Origin: Gammaproteobacteria bacterium
Lineage (GTDB): Bacteria; Pseudomonadota; Gammaproteobacteria; Pseudomonadales; Cellvibrionaceae
Direction of reading: 5' to 3'
DNA: 64,000 bases
Assembly (NCBI GenBank): GCA_004173475.1
Contig: SEBU01000007.1
Location: forward strand, 62,001 to 126,000
The notes below the pieces were generated by a model that saw only the letters and a list, made by a program, of their open reading frames with translations, made no database searches and was not told the DNA's origin. The position numbers were made by a program, and so were the translations under genes. Positions 46,117 to 57,447 of this stretch are shown here, piece after piece. The stretch's first letter is position 1, and every line of letters begins with the position of its first letter.

Positions 46117-48217
46117 TTACTGGCAGACACTACCTGTAACAGTTGGGGTTTGAGCAGCGCCATTTCCTTTAGTGCCTTGGAAACCAAACTCTGCAGTTTG
46201 ACCTGGTTGGATCGTGCTATTCCAACTCACGCCGCTTGCGGAGTACGGATTGCTACCAGACAAGGATCCGTTCCAGCTACTGGTAATTTTTGAACCATCG
46301 CTGTAAGACCAGCTAACGTTCCAACCGTTGATTGCTGAGCTTCCATTGTTGGTAATGCGTACAGCACCGGTGAAACCATTGTTCCACTGATTCGTCACTA
46401 CATAAGTACACTTGGCACCATTCGAAGCTATGCTGCTCGATGAACTGCTTCTTACACTTGAAGAACTGCTTACAACAGAAGAACTGCTGCTTCTAATGCT
46501 TGAGGACGAACTGCTAACAACTGAAGAACTTGATCTTCCGCCAGAACTTGATGAGCCGGTGCAGAAATCGCTGTTAGAGTGGTACAGGTCTTTTGTAGCT
46601 GTTGATACTCCACCTTTTCCATCTTTCACAGTGAGAGTAACTGTGTAAGTGGTAACAGGTCTCAGTCCGACATTGATGGTCACGCCGGAATAAGCGGTAG
46701 TGCTACCCCCGCCACTAACACTCCAATCATAGGTCAATGCATCGCCATCCAAATCTGAGGAAGTAGCTGCAGATATGGTGAAGCTTTGTCCAGGGCAACC
46801 TTGCGCTTGGGTGTAAGTGATAACTGCAGTAGGCGCACGGTTAGCGGCACTGCTCGAACTGCTTGATTCTCCTACTACTCCAAATGGTGCTGGTTGAGCG
46901 GCACAAGTACTGCGAGAAATACAGCTCTTGTTGTTCTCATATCCCCAACCGCTTGTGGTAGTTGTACATAACGGATACAAGTTGCCATACCAGTTACATT
47001 GTTGGCCAGAAGCGCTTGAAGACGATGATCTTACACTTGAAGAACTCGCTACACTTGAAGAGCTAATAACCGAAGAAGAGCTAACAACAGACGAGCTCGA
47101 GCGAACACTTGATGAACTAACCACTGATGAAGAACTTGATCTCGAGCTAGAAACTACCGAAGAGATCGAGCTTGAAGAGCGGCTGCTTGATGAGCCCGCT
47201 ACTGCAATTGGATAAGCATTGTTCAACAACAATTGGAAGCCACTGCTGAACCAACGACCTGCAACAGGTGCGTTAGCCATAGCGCCAGTTTCCACTGTCA
47301 GGTTGCCAGCAGCGTAGGTGTAAGTTGGATCACATTGACGGTCGAAACCTTTCGCTGGATCTTGTGGATCGTAAGACAGTTCTTGTGATGCAGCACCGTC
47401 TGACTCACCTGGTGGTTTCACCCACACGTATGCATCGATACCAACAGCAGGAGCTACAGTTGGACGCTCACCGATACCACCTTTTTGGTTACACCAGTTA
47501 CCGCGATGAGTACGCTTGTCGATACGAGACTCATTCACAAAGGTATCAAGTACAGTGCTGGTAGATTGCGCGGTTGGACGGTTTGCACCACCCCAGCCAT
47601 TACGTGAAGTATCAATCAACATACCAATTGTTGATGGGAAACCAGCTGCGATCATACGGGTACGCCATGCTTGCACGTAAGCAACTTCGCTGAAGTAGGG
47701 GTTCCACTCGTAGAAGCTTGCCTGACGAGTTTGGGTACCGCCACCACTGCCTGGGAATGCGCTGCTTGACAGTGAATCAAGGAAGGGTTCGTACAATGGA
47801 GTGTAACCTGCAGTGTTGGACACGAAACCAGCGATAGAGTTAACCCCACCAGTTGCACCTTTGATTGCGTCAGCAATTAAGGTTACTGATTTACCGATGT
47901 TGTCATCCCAACCTAACCAGCCAGAGTGACCGATATCAACGTAAGAATATACGTTAGGAATTGCATACAGCTTACTGAGGGTATAACGGGTATTTGCAAC
48001 GTAACCGTAGGTTGCATCGGCAGCTGCCTGGCAATCTGGATCATTCAGGTTAGTAACGAGGTTTGGTAATGAGTCAGGTTCAATGATCGCGATAATACGC
48101 AGACTTGCATATTTTGAATCAGAGAAAATTGACGCAATCTTATCAACATACTCGGTACGGTAGCGCAACGAACCTTCAGCAGATTGTTTCAACTCGCCGT
48201 TAGAAGCCAAGGCTTTA
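46117..48217 (-). pseudogene. GH6-CBM10-PKD-CBM2 portion of a bifunctional cellulase, out of frame with its GH9 half
   Basis: About 700 codons continue the GH9 gene in another frame. From the break at 48217: [14 protein letters not shown], then [21 protein letters not shown] and [16 protein letters not shown], which are clear GH6 sequence. Next come a Ser-rich linker, CBM10 ([12 protein letters not shown] ... [10 protein letters not shown]), a second linker, a PKD domain ([20 protein letters not shown]), a third linker and CBM2 ([15 protein letters not shown] ... SGSVCQ). The GH6 N-terminal portion between YVDP and ALASNGEL is missing, including the segment that carries the family's R-D-C/proton-donor Asp region. 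As written the GH6 domain cannot be active or in frame. Confidence 0.8.
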
Positions 48218-50315
48218 CCGGGTCTACGTACCAACGAGCGTCAGTGAATGGGTTATCCAAACGTGGACCAGCACTTGTGTTGGTGCTTGAAGAGCTTGAG
48301 CGAACGCTTGAAGAGCTTGATCTCGCACTCGAGAAAATCGTAGAGGAAAGGGAACTAGATCTCGCGCTAGAAGAGCCTACTGAAGATACAGAACTTGATC
48401 TCACGCTTGAAGAAGCTATTGATGAACTGCTTCTTGCACTTGACGAGCTCACAACGCTCGAACTGGCTAGGCTAGAGGAAGTATTGTTGTTGCCACTTGC
48501 CGCGTAATCGTTATAGAAAGCAAGGTTCCACGCCAAAGGAGCGTTCCAGTTGATCGTAATTTCGTTCACCGCATAGGCTTCGATGTTGTCCATCCAACAA
48601 GTAGCTGGCTTGGTTACACAACTTGCCAGAGCAGCCGCAGATTTTGGATCTTCCAAACCAGCGTTAGGACCACCAGAGAAAGCGCCGGGCGGAGGGGTTG
48701 GGTAGCTGCCATTGGTCGCATTAGACCAGAAACGGTGGTGCGGTTGGGTAACAGCCTTGGTTCCTTCGCCGGTAATGAACGAGGTTGACTGTGTATTTTG
48801 GCCTAAGAAGAAGTTCAAACCTTTACCAACGCCTTTCGCATAGGTGTCATTTTTGGTGAAATCGTAAGCCAAGCCCATCAATATCAACTTGTTAGCAACA
48901 GAACCGTTCGAACCCCAGTAATAATCCGTGATGGACGAAGGAGCCGGGTAGCCTGAACTGTTTTGCGTTGCTATATGTAAATCAGCAATCGATACGATTT
49001 TTTGCTGGGCAGCAGAGCGCAAGCTTGCAGTTTGGCTAGCTGGAACTATCGCCAAAGAGATCAAACCAGCAAGGTCGGTATCCGCCCAACCAAAATTGGT
49101 TTGGGTAACGCTGCGGCTATTCAAGGTTGAAAGATATTTGCTGTCACCGGTAGTGATATAAAGTTCGGCAGCTGCCCAATAAAATTCGTCAGCTACAGTC
49201 TTATCGCCGTAACCGCCACCGCCATTGTCGTAATTGCCTGAATAAAGATCGCTAGGATTTGCTTGTGCGGCAGTCCACGCACGTTCTGCAGCGGTCAAAC
49301 AGGTTTCGGCAAAACCAGAATCAATATCGCGCCAAATACGAGCCGCTTGTGCTGCTACCGCAGCTACATTGAGGGTTGCTGCTGTTGACGGTGGAACGAG
49401 TGCACGTTCTTGTGGATCTTCATGCGGTGCAAGTGGGAAACCAGTCCAGCCCACGTCATGCATTTTGTGGTGAACCATGCCTGCTTTGGCTTGGCCAGTT
49501 GGAACCTGCATACCTAACAAAAATTCCATTTCCCAACGAGCTTCGTCGAGAATATCTGGAACGCCGTTAACGCTTTCAGGAATATTTAATTTGCCATCAG
49601 CGATGCTGGGTGAGTTAGCGCCCAGGTAGAGACTGCGCTCATACAGGTTTAATAATGTCCAAACAGAAATACCGCCGTTCACGACGTATTTGCCATGGTC
49701 ACCAGCGTCGTACCAACCTTTCGATACATTGAGCGAGTAGTTACAAGTACCGGTCCAGCAAGGCACATTCACGTCACCTTTGTTGGGGCTGACGTTCACG
49801 TGGCCTGCTGGACGTGCCCATTTGCTATTGCTCGCAAACGAACCATTACCGCCGCCAGTGTATTGGGTCTCAATCGCGATGCCACTACGGTTGTGGTAGA
49901 AGTACTTGAGCGAGTCGTATAGAGCGCCTTTTAAAGCGGTTGAAGAAATCGCAAAGTTATAACTGGAGTCGCTTCCCACTGTCAGGCTGAAGCCGGTACC
50001 GGTTGAAGTAACATTGGAAAGATCGATCTGGTGAAGGTTATCGCCGCTGGCTGCGTCTGTGCCGAGCGGGGTAGTTTGACCGCTAGCTACAACGGTACCA
50101 TTTTGCTTGAGTTGCCACGTTTGAGCACTCGTACTGGTTGTTTTATAAGTAGCTGTCTTAGCTCCATTGGGCACGTAACCGAGTTGGTTCACTCTTGGGT
50201 TACCTGTTTGCGCCAGGGCATCAAGGCTTGCAACCGTAAGAAGTCCCGAAGCAATTAAGGTATAGAGCGCCTTACGCTTGGGGATTTTGCGTGCAAATTC
50301 TTTTTGTATATTCAT
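48189..50315 (-). CDS. GH9 cellulase, N-terminal half of a GH9-GH6 gene; reading frame ends early at a deletion
   Basis: A secreted endoglucanase-type GH9 protein. The signal peptide ends ALAQ (about residue 36). A CelD-type Ig-like domain follows ([19 protein letters not shown], about 38-130). The GH9 (alpha/alpha)6 domain carries the nucleophile/base pair in [15 protein letters not shown] and the acid Glu in [15 protein letters not shown], with PHHRFWS as the third signature. A Ser/Arg linker of about 90 residues leads to [15 protein letters not shown], the beginning of a GH6 domain. Here the frame breaks and stops within a few codons. The intact gene would encode GH9-linker-GH6-linker-CBM10-PKD-CBM2. 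The downstream part is listed separately. Confidence 0.88.
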
Positions 50316-50441
50316 TGGAAATTGTCTCGCTTAATTGGAAAAAAATTCATAACCGCTTTTTTCATACCATGACTGCCTATTTCATCTATTGGCAGGTCAA
50401 TATAAGCGGTGCGCTTTTACGGTAGTTCCGACTTCGGCCGT

Positions 50442-50470
50442 AAAAAAACCGGACTGTAGGACAGGCCGGT
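50442..50470 (-). terminator. Intrinsic terminator of the CBM2-CBM10-GH6 gene
   Basis: On the minus strand, stem ACCGG / CCGGT with a 13-nt loop and a T7 tract, between the GH6 gene (ends 50624) and the GH9 gene (starts 50315). The gap 50316-50623 holds no gene; it contains this terminator, the hairpin at 50508-50543 and the GH9 promoter region. Confidence 0.75.
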
Positions 50471-50507
50471 CTAATTGTTTTACTGATTAGATGTTATATC
50501 TCTTGAG

Positions 50508-50543
50508 GCTAACTGATCACAGTGTCGATCTTGATCAGTTAGC
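50508..50543 (-). repeat. Perfect 12-bp inverted repeat in the second cellulase 3' UTR
   Basis: GCTAACTGATCA (50508-50519) and TGATCAGTTAGC (50532-50543) form a perfect stem with a 12-nt loop, downstream of the GH6 stop. A further AAGCCC/GGGCTT stem lies at 50585-50612. Confidence 0.75.
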
Positions 50544-50623
50544 AATGATATAAATGTCTAACTGTCTATCTGGTTTCATAATGTAAGCCCTTATCAGTTA
50601 AGACTCGGGCTTAATTTCAAGGA

Positions 50624-51644
50624 TTACTGAGCCGCCGGATAAGCATTGTTCAACAATACTTGGAAGCCTTTGCTGAACCAACGACCTGCTACAGGAGCGT
50701 CAGCCAATGCACCAGTTTCCACGGTCAAGTTGCCTGCAGCGTAGACGTAAGTTGGGTCACACATACGGTCGAAGCCTTTGGCTGGATCTTGTGGATCGTA
50801 AGACAGTTCTTGTGATGCAGCACCATCTGACTCACCTGGTGGTTTCACCCATACGTATGCATCGATACCAACAGCAGGAGATACTTGTGGACGCTCACCG
50901 ATACCACCTTTTTGGTTACACCAGTTACCGCGATGAGTACGCTTGTCGATACGAGACTCATTCACAAAGGTATCAAGTACAGTACTGGTAGATTGCGCGG
51001 TTGGACGGTTTGCACCACCCCAGCCATTACGTGAGGTATCAACCAACATACCAATCGTAGATGGGAAACCAGCAGCAATCATACGGGTACGCCAAGCTTG
51101 CACGAAGGCAACTTCGCTGAAGAAGGGGTTCCATTCAAAGAAGTTTGCTTGACGAACTTGGGTACCGCCACCGCTGCCTGGCAATGCACTGCTTGACAGT
51201 GAATCAAGGAAGGGTTCGTACAATGGAGTGTAACCTGCAGTGTTGGACACGAAACCAGCGATAGAGTTAACCCCACCAGTTGCACCTTTGATTGCATCAG
51301 CAATTAAAGTTACTGATTTACCCAAGTTGTCATCCCAACCTAACCAGCCAGAGTGACCGATATCCACGTAGGAATAAACGTTAGATATTCCGTACAACTT
51401 GCCCAAGGTATAACGGGTATTCGCAATGTAACCGTAGGTTGCATCGGTAGCCGCCTGGCAATCTGGATCATTCAGGTTAGTAACGAGGTTTGGTAATGAG
51501 TCAGGTTCAATGATCGCGATAATTCGCAGACTTGCATATTTTGAATCAGAGAAAATTGACGCAATCTTATCAACATACTCGGTACGGTAGCGCAACGAAC
51601 CTTCAGCAGATTGTTTCAACTCGCCGTTAGAAGCCAAGGCTTTA
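50624..51644 (-). pseudogene. GH6 catalytic portion of the CBM2-CBM10-GH6 cellulase, out of frame
   Basis: About 340 codons from [10 protein letters not shown] to LLNNAYPAAQ, nearly identical to the GH6 portion at 47210-48217 (for example [16 protein letters not shown] and [20 protein letters not shown] in both). The upstream half of the gene (signal, CBM2, CBM10, linker) ends in another frame at 51642. The N-terminal GH6 segment is missing, again up to exactly GGCTTTA on the plus strand (51638-51644). The whole locus should encode a CBM2-CBM10-GH6 cellobiohydrolase or endoglucanase like Cellvibrio Cel6A. Confidence 0.8.
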
Positions 51645-52541
51645 ACGTGGACCAGCACTTGTGTTGGTGCTTGAAGAGCTTGAGCGAACGCTTGAAGCTA
51701 CTGAGCTCGATCTTAAGCTTGAGGAAACAGCTGAAGATAGTGAACTTGATCTCAGGCTTGAAGAAACAACTGATGATACAGAGCTCGATCTCAAGCTAGA
51801 TGAAACAACTGAAGATACTGAACTTGATCTCAGGCTTGAAGAAACAACTGAAGATACAGAGCTAGATCTTAGGCTTGAAGATACAGAGCTTGAACGTGCG
51901 CTAGATACGGGGCAGCTGGCGCCACCACCAACTACACCGTAAGGCGCAGGTTGTGTAGTACACGTAGATTGAGTAATACAGCTTTTACCGTTTTCATAAC
52001 CCCAACCAGATGTGGTTTGAGAGCAGATAGGGTAATTGGTGCCGTACCAGTTACATTGAGAACCGCCATTATTACAGGTCTGTGAAGAGCTGCTTGAGCT
52101 GCGTGGAGCGCTCGAAGTTGATGAGTTGTCTACAAAAGAACTAGCAGCTGAGCTTGTCGCGTTAGAGCAAACATTGCCAGTAATAGTTGGTTTTTCAGCC
52201 GAGCTGTTGTTATTTTTGTTGCCTTGAACACCAAAGCTAACAGACTGGCCTGGTTGGATAGTCCTGTTCCAATCTACGTTGGATGCAGAATATGGGTTAC
52301 TGCCCGATAGAGTTGCGTTCCATGAACTAGTGACTCTGTTGGAATTGTATTGCCAACCTACTGTCCAGCCATTAATAGCGGAAGAAGTATTGTTGGTAAT
52401 AGTAACAGTGCCTTGGAAGCCATTGCTCCATTCATTGTTAACGGTGTAGGTACAACTTGCTGCTTGAGCCTGGCTCGCAGCAGCAATGCTTAAACCTAGC
52501 AGTGATGCTAGACCAAGCGATTTGCGGATTGAAAGATTCAT
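51642..52541 (-). CDS. Signal-CBM2-CBM10-linker half of a GH6 cellulase; reading frame ends early at a deletion
   Basis: A 299-residue open frame. Signal peptide (about 1-27, ending AQA); CBM2 (CTYTVNNEWSNGFQGTVTI ... GNVC) with the surface Trp residues; Ser-rich linker; CBM10 ([22 protein letters not shown] then CITQSTC); a long [12 protein letters not shown] repeat linker; then STNTSAGPR and a stop created at the deletion junction. AGGA precedes the ATG at 52541. Without the deletion it would run into the GH6 domain at 50624-51644. Both binding modules target crystalline cellulose in related enzymes. Confidence 0.87.
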   Translation of the reverse strand: MNLSIRKSLGLASLLGLSIAAASQAQAASCTYTVNNEWSNGFQGTVTITNNTSSAINGWTVGWQYNSNRVTSSWNATLSGSNPYSASNVDWNRTIQPGQSVSFGVQGNKNNNSSAEKPTITGNVCSNATSSAASSFVDNSSTSSAPRSSSSSSQTCNNGGSQCNWYGTNYPICSQTTSGWGYENGKSCITQSTCTTQPAPYGVVGGGASCPVSSARSSSVSSSLRSSSVSSVVSSSLRSSSVSSVVSSSLRSSSVSSVVSSSLRSSSLSSAVSSSLRSSSVASSVRSSSSSTNTSAGPR

Positions 52542-56351: not shown

Positions 56352-57447
56352 ATGGAAATTAATCCACTATTAAATGCTTTAAAAGACCTCTCCGAGCGTA
56401 CAAATGTGCTCCGGGGGTACCTTTGACTATGCCACTAAGAAAGAACGCTTAACAGAAGTTGAGCTGGAACTTGGTGAGTCTAATGTCTGGGAAAACCCCG
56501 AGCGAGCGCAAACCTTAGGTCGGGAGCGTTCAAGTCTTGAAAATGTTGTAAAAACTATTGATGACCTGGATATAGGTGTTAGCGACTGCCGCGAACTTCT
56601 CGATATGGCTGTTGAGGAAGATGACGAAGCGAGTGTCGCTGATGTTCAGTCCGAAATCGACCGCCTCGACAAACAACTTGCTGCGCTCGAATTTCGCCGC
56701 ATGTTTTCGAATGAAATGGATCCCAATAACGCATACCTCGACATTCAATCTGGCTCCGGCGGCACCGAAGCGCAAGATTGGGCCGAAATGGTGTTGCGCA
56801 TGTATTTGCGGTGGGGTGAAGCCAAAGGTTTCAAAGTTACATTGGAAGAATGTTCTGCGGGAGATGTTGCTGGCATCAAGAGCGCCACCATTCGCTATGA
56901 AGGCGAATACGCATTTGGCTGGTTGCGCACAGAAACGGGTGTACATCGGTTAGTACGTAAATCGCCGTTTGATTCTGGCAATCGTCGTCACACCTCATTT
57001 TGTTCGGTGTTTGTATCGCCAGAAATTGACGACAATATCGAAATTGACATCAATCCTTCCGATCTTCGCATTGATACTTATCGCGCAAGCGGAGCAGGCG
57101 GGCAGCACGTAAACAAAACAGATTCGGCGGTGCGCATTACGCACATCCCAACCAATATTGTTGTGCAATGCCAGAACGAACGCTCGCAACATGCGAACCG
57201 CGATCAAGCTTATAAAATGTTGCGTGCGAAAATGTACGAACACGAAATGCAAAAGCGCAATGCCGAAAAACAAGCGATGGAAGACAGCAAATCCGACATC
57301 GGCTGGGGCAGCCAAATTCGATCCTACGTTTTAGATGATTCTCGCATTAAAGATTTGCGCACTAGCGTACAAACTAGCAACTGCCAAGCCGTATTAGATG
57401 GTGCGCTCGACCAATTTATGGTTGAAAGTTTGAAGGCCGGTTTGTAA
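56352..57447 (+). CDS. prfB: Peptide chain release factor 2 (programmed +1 frameshift)
   Basis: RF2 reads UAA and UGA stop codons and triggers peptide release. Frame 1 runs from the ATG at 56352 ([17 protein letters not shown]) to an in-frame TGA at 56424. Synthesis of the full protein requires a +1 shift at CTT-TGA, giving ...[13 protein letters not shown]. Total length about 364 residues, normal for RF2. The stop-recognition loop is [13 protein letters not shown] and the catalytic loop [19 protein letters not shown] carries GGQ. lysS follows 41 nt later, the conserved prfB-lysS order. Confidence 0.97.
56412..56427 (+). promoter_or_regulatory. prfB frameshift site
   Basis: CGGGGG (internal Shine-Dalgarno, 56412-56417), then TAC, CTT, TGA, C. 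Spacing and the CUU-UGA-C slippery stop equal the classical E. coli site. RF2 shortage lengthens the pause at UGA and promotes the +1 shift, so the gene is autoregulated. Confidence 0.95.

Follow-up and report, generated by a model that had tools for sequence, protein, structure and literature searches.

Two neighboring GH6 modules cut at a common base in a Cellvibrionaceae draft genome are very probably casualties of short-read assembly

Two neighboring cellulase genes in the window, the whole 64,000-nucleotide stretch of DNA analyzed here, each lack a segment of their GH6 module, and both modules are cut at one common base. We conclude that the missing segments are very probably a short-read assembly artifact within a recent duplication and not a real deletion. 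In the cell, both genes would most likely be intact, with a Cel6-type product of ~718 residues and a GH9-GH6-CBM10-PKD-CBM2 product of ~1,460 residues (summed residue counts).

Both genes lie on the minus strand. Read 5' to 3', a CBM2-CBM10-linker-GH6 gene (52541 to 50624) is followed by a GH9-linker-GH6-linker-CBM10-PKD-CBM2 gene (50315 to 46117), and each is broken into two frames at a single point inside GH6. The initial annotation described two GH6 genes, but the GH6 module of the second gene (copy 1) is not a stand-alone gene; it continues the GH9 gene. The upstream part of that gene (48218 to 50315) has a signal-like start followed by CelD_N, GH9, a Ser linker, and the first 14 GH6 residues [14 protein letters not shown], while the downstream part (46117 to 48217) comprises the C-terminal part of GH6 (47209 to 48216), Ser linkers, CBM10, PKD, CBM2, and a stop. 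The downstream frame would continue the GH9 gene if the module were intact. As assembled, the frame joining GH9 and GH6 is broken at junction 1, each half being open up to the junction, and the upstream frame reaches a stop at 48189, shortly beyond it. The copy 1 gene probably encodes a GH9-GH6-CBM10-PKD-CBM2 enzyme. In the Cel6-type gene (copy 2), the upstream part (51645 to 52541) consists of a signal-like start, CBM2, CBM10, and a Ser linker, whose final GPR passes straight into a stop at the junction; the downstream part (50624 to 51644) is the C-terminal part of GH6, with a stop following NNAYPAAQ. The GH6 profile PF01341 scores 246.3 and 238.3 bits for the two copies, over profile positions 68 to 299 and 71 to 299 of 305, both above the curated cutoff of 27 bits. 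A search against Rfam gave no match.

On the plus strand, junction 1 joins GGCTTTA to CCGGGTC at 48217/48218, and junction 2 joins GGCTTTA to ACGTGG at 51644/51645. These positions bear out the initial annotation, which had reported a breakpoint common to the base, left ends that differ (copy 1 keeps its 14 residues and copy 2 stops after the linker), and halves that are out of frame at both junctions. The sequence that ends at the common breakpoint is identical in the two copies over 120 bases (48098 to 48217 and 51525 to 51644). On the far side of the missing part, a second identical stretch of 54 bases (48260 to 48313 and 51644 to 51697) covers the end of the linker and GPR. The joins contain no N and are nearly blunt, with perhaps 1 to 3 bases in common as guessed from relatives. 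Measured against the module of G014, the closest intact congener module and our reference for gap lengths, 66 codons are missing at junction 1 and 80 at junction 2, so the earlier figure of 80 to 90 residues for both copies needs correction. In the 30 intact congener modules that we extracted, the interval from the start of LDNPF to the residue before the AL(A/S)SNG motif spans 79 to 83 residues.

The missing part carries the motif YDLPNRDC, which is absent from both copies as assembled. Contrary to the earlier suggestion that the proton-donor Asp had been lost, the proton-donor motif EPDSL is retained in both copies (its Asp codon is 48073 to 48075 in copy 1), and the missing Asp is the one resembling Asp175. 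In this assignment, EPDSL corresponds to D221 and YDLPxRDC to D175 of Trichoderma Cel6A. In that enzyme, D221 is the catalytic acid and D175 the putative base, according to PMC6091422. Loss of the missing part would very likely kill the enzyme.

Evidence for an assembly origin comes from the contig ends. The genome is a draft of 60 contigs and 4.73 Mb, of which 32 read entirely as N, leaving 28 unmasked contigs for comparison. Among the 56 ends of these contigs there are eight end-to-end matches; the overlap is exactly 119 bases in seven of them and 115 in the eighth. Another three ends have matches in the interior of contigs (119, 116, and 41 bases). Such overlaps are characteristic of de Bruijn assembly at k = 119. 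One contig runs through a 119-base match, so some repeats must have been bridged in another way. No exact repeat in the 865,118 unmasked bases (18% of the genome) is longer than the 120-base stretch at the junctions. The 119-base matches come next, and all of them touch a contig end. The copies last differ, on the left side of the cut, at 48097 (copy 1) and 51524 (copy 2); adding 119 gives 48216 and 51643, and the next base is A in both. At k = 119 the unitig of either copy must therefore end at the cut, which accounts for the common breakpoint; only additional data could take the assembler past this point. The right flanks do not follow this rule, as they keep 97 and 54 bases of the common stretch rather than 119. 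The value of k thus accounts for the left breakpoint but not for those on the right.

A sequence of events consistent with these observations would begin with two young GH6 modules, one in the CBM2-CBM10-GH6 gene and one inserted next door between GH9 and CBM10. Around the GH6 N terminus the modules would be identical over ~415 bases in total, longer than k = 119; this length comprises the 120 and 54 bases seen in the assembly and the part that would lie between them. Both unique left-hand unitigs end exactly 119 bases past the last distinguishing base. The common middle piece, as a contig of ~415 bases, would fall below a length floor of ~1 kb and be dropped; the shortest contig in the draft is 1,023 bases. 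A later joining or gap-closing step would then have fused the right flanks nearly bluntly after unequal trimming. Plain unitig output would not give N-free, nearly blunt joins, which counts against an artifact, and gap closing must be assumed.

The missing segment was also sought in the draft itself. A protein search of the genome gave just the retained ends of both copies in the window, plus weak matches of 33% elsewhere, and a degenerate DNA pattern returned none; both results say little in a draft that contains no contig below 1,023 bases and in which 32 of 60 contigs are all N. Of the other genomes of the genus, a GH6 match spanning the part missing here is present in 17 of 20, two (G007 and G020, both given as 100% complete) gave no GH6 match, and G003 has gapped copies. 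The two copies of G003, 97.5% identical in their kept parts, contain N runs of 609 and 608 bases starting at LDNP and further runs of 76 and 88 bases beyond. The N runs resemble gaps left by assembly and fall in the corresponding part of the domain; they may in principle be masked sequence, and we regard them as support rather than proof. We also considered a contig end inside GH6 in G016 as a case of repeat breakage and rejected it, since the second GH6 of that stretch shares only 81% identity with it. This break, without a near-identical partner in its stretch, indicates that not every GH6 break is due to repeats.

The two copies in the window are sister sequences with a support of 100/100 in a tree of 34 rows. 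They are direct repeats 3,427 bases apart with identical stretches of up to 120 bases, and are 93.1% identical over 1,008 bases, with 43 of the 70 differences at third codon positions. Between them, dN is 0.038 and dS 0.196 (dN/dS of ~0.2), and the downstream parts are open frames, indicating that both copies have been under selection since the duplication. When the differences are placed at random, an identical run of at least 120 bases appears in 0.6% of placements. The differences are thus unevenly spread, a pattern that could result from patchy gene conversion or from uneven selection.

If the deletions were real, ~200 bases would have been lost in one copy, the cut would have been passed on to the other by gene conversion, and 43 more bases next to the junction would then have been lost in copy 2, leaving no working GH6. 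The joins, free of N and nearly blunt, fit such a history, as does the failure to find the segment in the searchable part of the assembly, and the copies are similar enough for conversion. The absence of GH6 from G007 and G020 further shows that its loss is tolerated in the genus, a point that also counts against an artifact. However, this account requires three events, or else two deletions that coincide at one base, and a common run ending at exactly k + 1 for k = 119 would be a coincidence. Given the open downstream frames and the low dN/dS, a loss could only have happened recently. To judge from the names of its relatives and its gene content, the present genome probably belongs to Cellvibrio or a close relative. 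When cel6A, the only GH6 gene of Cellvibrio japonicus, is deleted, growth on cellulose suffers (PMC12542752); this makes a silent loss of GH6 here somewhat less likely, with the two congeners lacking GH6 as the counterargument. Weighing these points, we consider true deletions very improbable. Were they real, a cellulolytic bacterium would here be without GH6 while both genes remain otherwise intact.

Still further down in probability, to the point where we give it almost no weight, is a recombination switch in which the direct GH6 repeats excise the 3.4-kb GH9 block or swap modules, so that the assembly mixed different states. The spacing and the identity of the repeats would permit it, yet recombination between direct repeats would not delete the inside of the repeat itself, and among the unmasked contigs these are the only two GH6 places, with no excised or switched form. 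The initial annotation had offered loss in assembly of a near-identical repeat next to biological loss or switching of GH6 activity. The former is strongly supported by the k = 119 fingerprint, the N runs in the congener, and the selection on the copies; the latter is unsupported.

Under the preferred reading, an artifact within a recent duplication, the duplication itself is real. In G002, G003, G005, G008, G009, G012, and one G015 contig, the Cel6-type gene adjoins a GH9-CBM10-CBM2 gene without GH6, whereas the window has a GH6 module placed between the GH9 and CBM10 parts. Similarity between the two copies ceases within the Ser linker at one end and with the end of the domain at the other. 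To judge from these boundaries, it looks as if the GH6 module was recently copied into the linker of the neighboring GH9 gene, which would be a fresh example of modular shuffling between adjacent genes. The GH9-GH6 fusion is probably lineage specific. Across the other 20 genomes of the genus, no GH9-GH6 frame was seen, with the G003 copies gapped and one G016 copy truncated at a contig end; GH9 is absent from all the congener GH6 frames examined, a list for which the truncated G016 copy was too short; in a GH9 search of the 21 genus genomes, GH9 frames did not exceed 1,134 residues; and a GH9 scan of genome contigs, covering 80 loci out of 193 relatives, found no open reading frame of at least 250 residues with both GH9 and GH6. 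Comparable shuffling is frequent in the genus: GH10 and GH6 share one frame in G010, G014, and G016 (in G003 this arrangement is deduced from the order on one strand), and GH5 is found with GH6 in G001, G013, and G019. In G003 (locus L034, G003:C9), the 97.5% identical copies belong to the Cel6-type gene and the GH10-associated gene and are sisters in the tree, although the matching pairs reach only 78.5% in G010 and 80.6% in G014, a difference suggestive of conversion or a new copy in G003. Locus L139 of G010 (G010:C1) has two GH6 domains with 95.2% identical DNA in one open frame of 1,716 residues.

Other features of the genome and the window were recorded alongside. A 6,236-base contig (G000:C23, L180) closes on itself by 119 bases, and its open reading frames look filamentous-phage-like on reading (a pI/Zot-like ATPase of 389 amino acids, a coat-like protein of 82, and an adsorption-like protein of 466). 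The ends of a 194,195-base contig (G000:C60, L217 and L226) overlap by 119 bases, and this contig may be a circular replicon of ~194 kb. Within the window, at 56352 to 56430, an upstream start and a CTTTGAC site (56421 to 56427) lie ahead of a long frame. We take this to be prfB, encoding release factor 2, with CTTTGAC as in its programmed +1 frameshift.

These results call for caution in reading gene loss from draft genomes, as paralogous catalytic modules of recent origin can be cut unnoticed, leaving no N and a breakpoint that seems precise, and an enzyme class present in the organism may then be recorded as absent. A simple check, possible without reads, is to set the length of the common stretch against the contig-tip overlap.

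In de Bruijn assembly of short reads, repeats collapse at the k-mer length and contigs break inside exact repeats longer than k. The present case resembles this behavior in that unique unitigs end k past the last difference and contig tips have k bases in common; it differs in that neither an N nor a contig break is left and in that the right flanks are nearly blunt and do not end at k. As a gene, copy 2 matches the Cel6-type CBM2-CBM10-GH6 genes of congeners in domain order and in its GH9 neighbor, as in G005 and G008, and in length (~718 residues here, summed, versus 718 in G005 and 739 in G008), and differs from them in the 80 codons absent as assembled. For the fusion, PMC11653725 was set aside, as the passage concerned refers to GH65. 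PMC4928363 describes a multi-activity cellulase from Kribbella (spelled Kribella there) with the order CBM4/9-CelD-GH9-GH6. As in that enzyme, CelD_N, GH9, and GH6 would here be combined in one polypeptide; unlike in the arrangement given there, the GH6 module here occupies a Ser linker ahead of CBM10-PKD-CBM2 and is nearly identical to the GH6 of the gene next to it.
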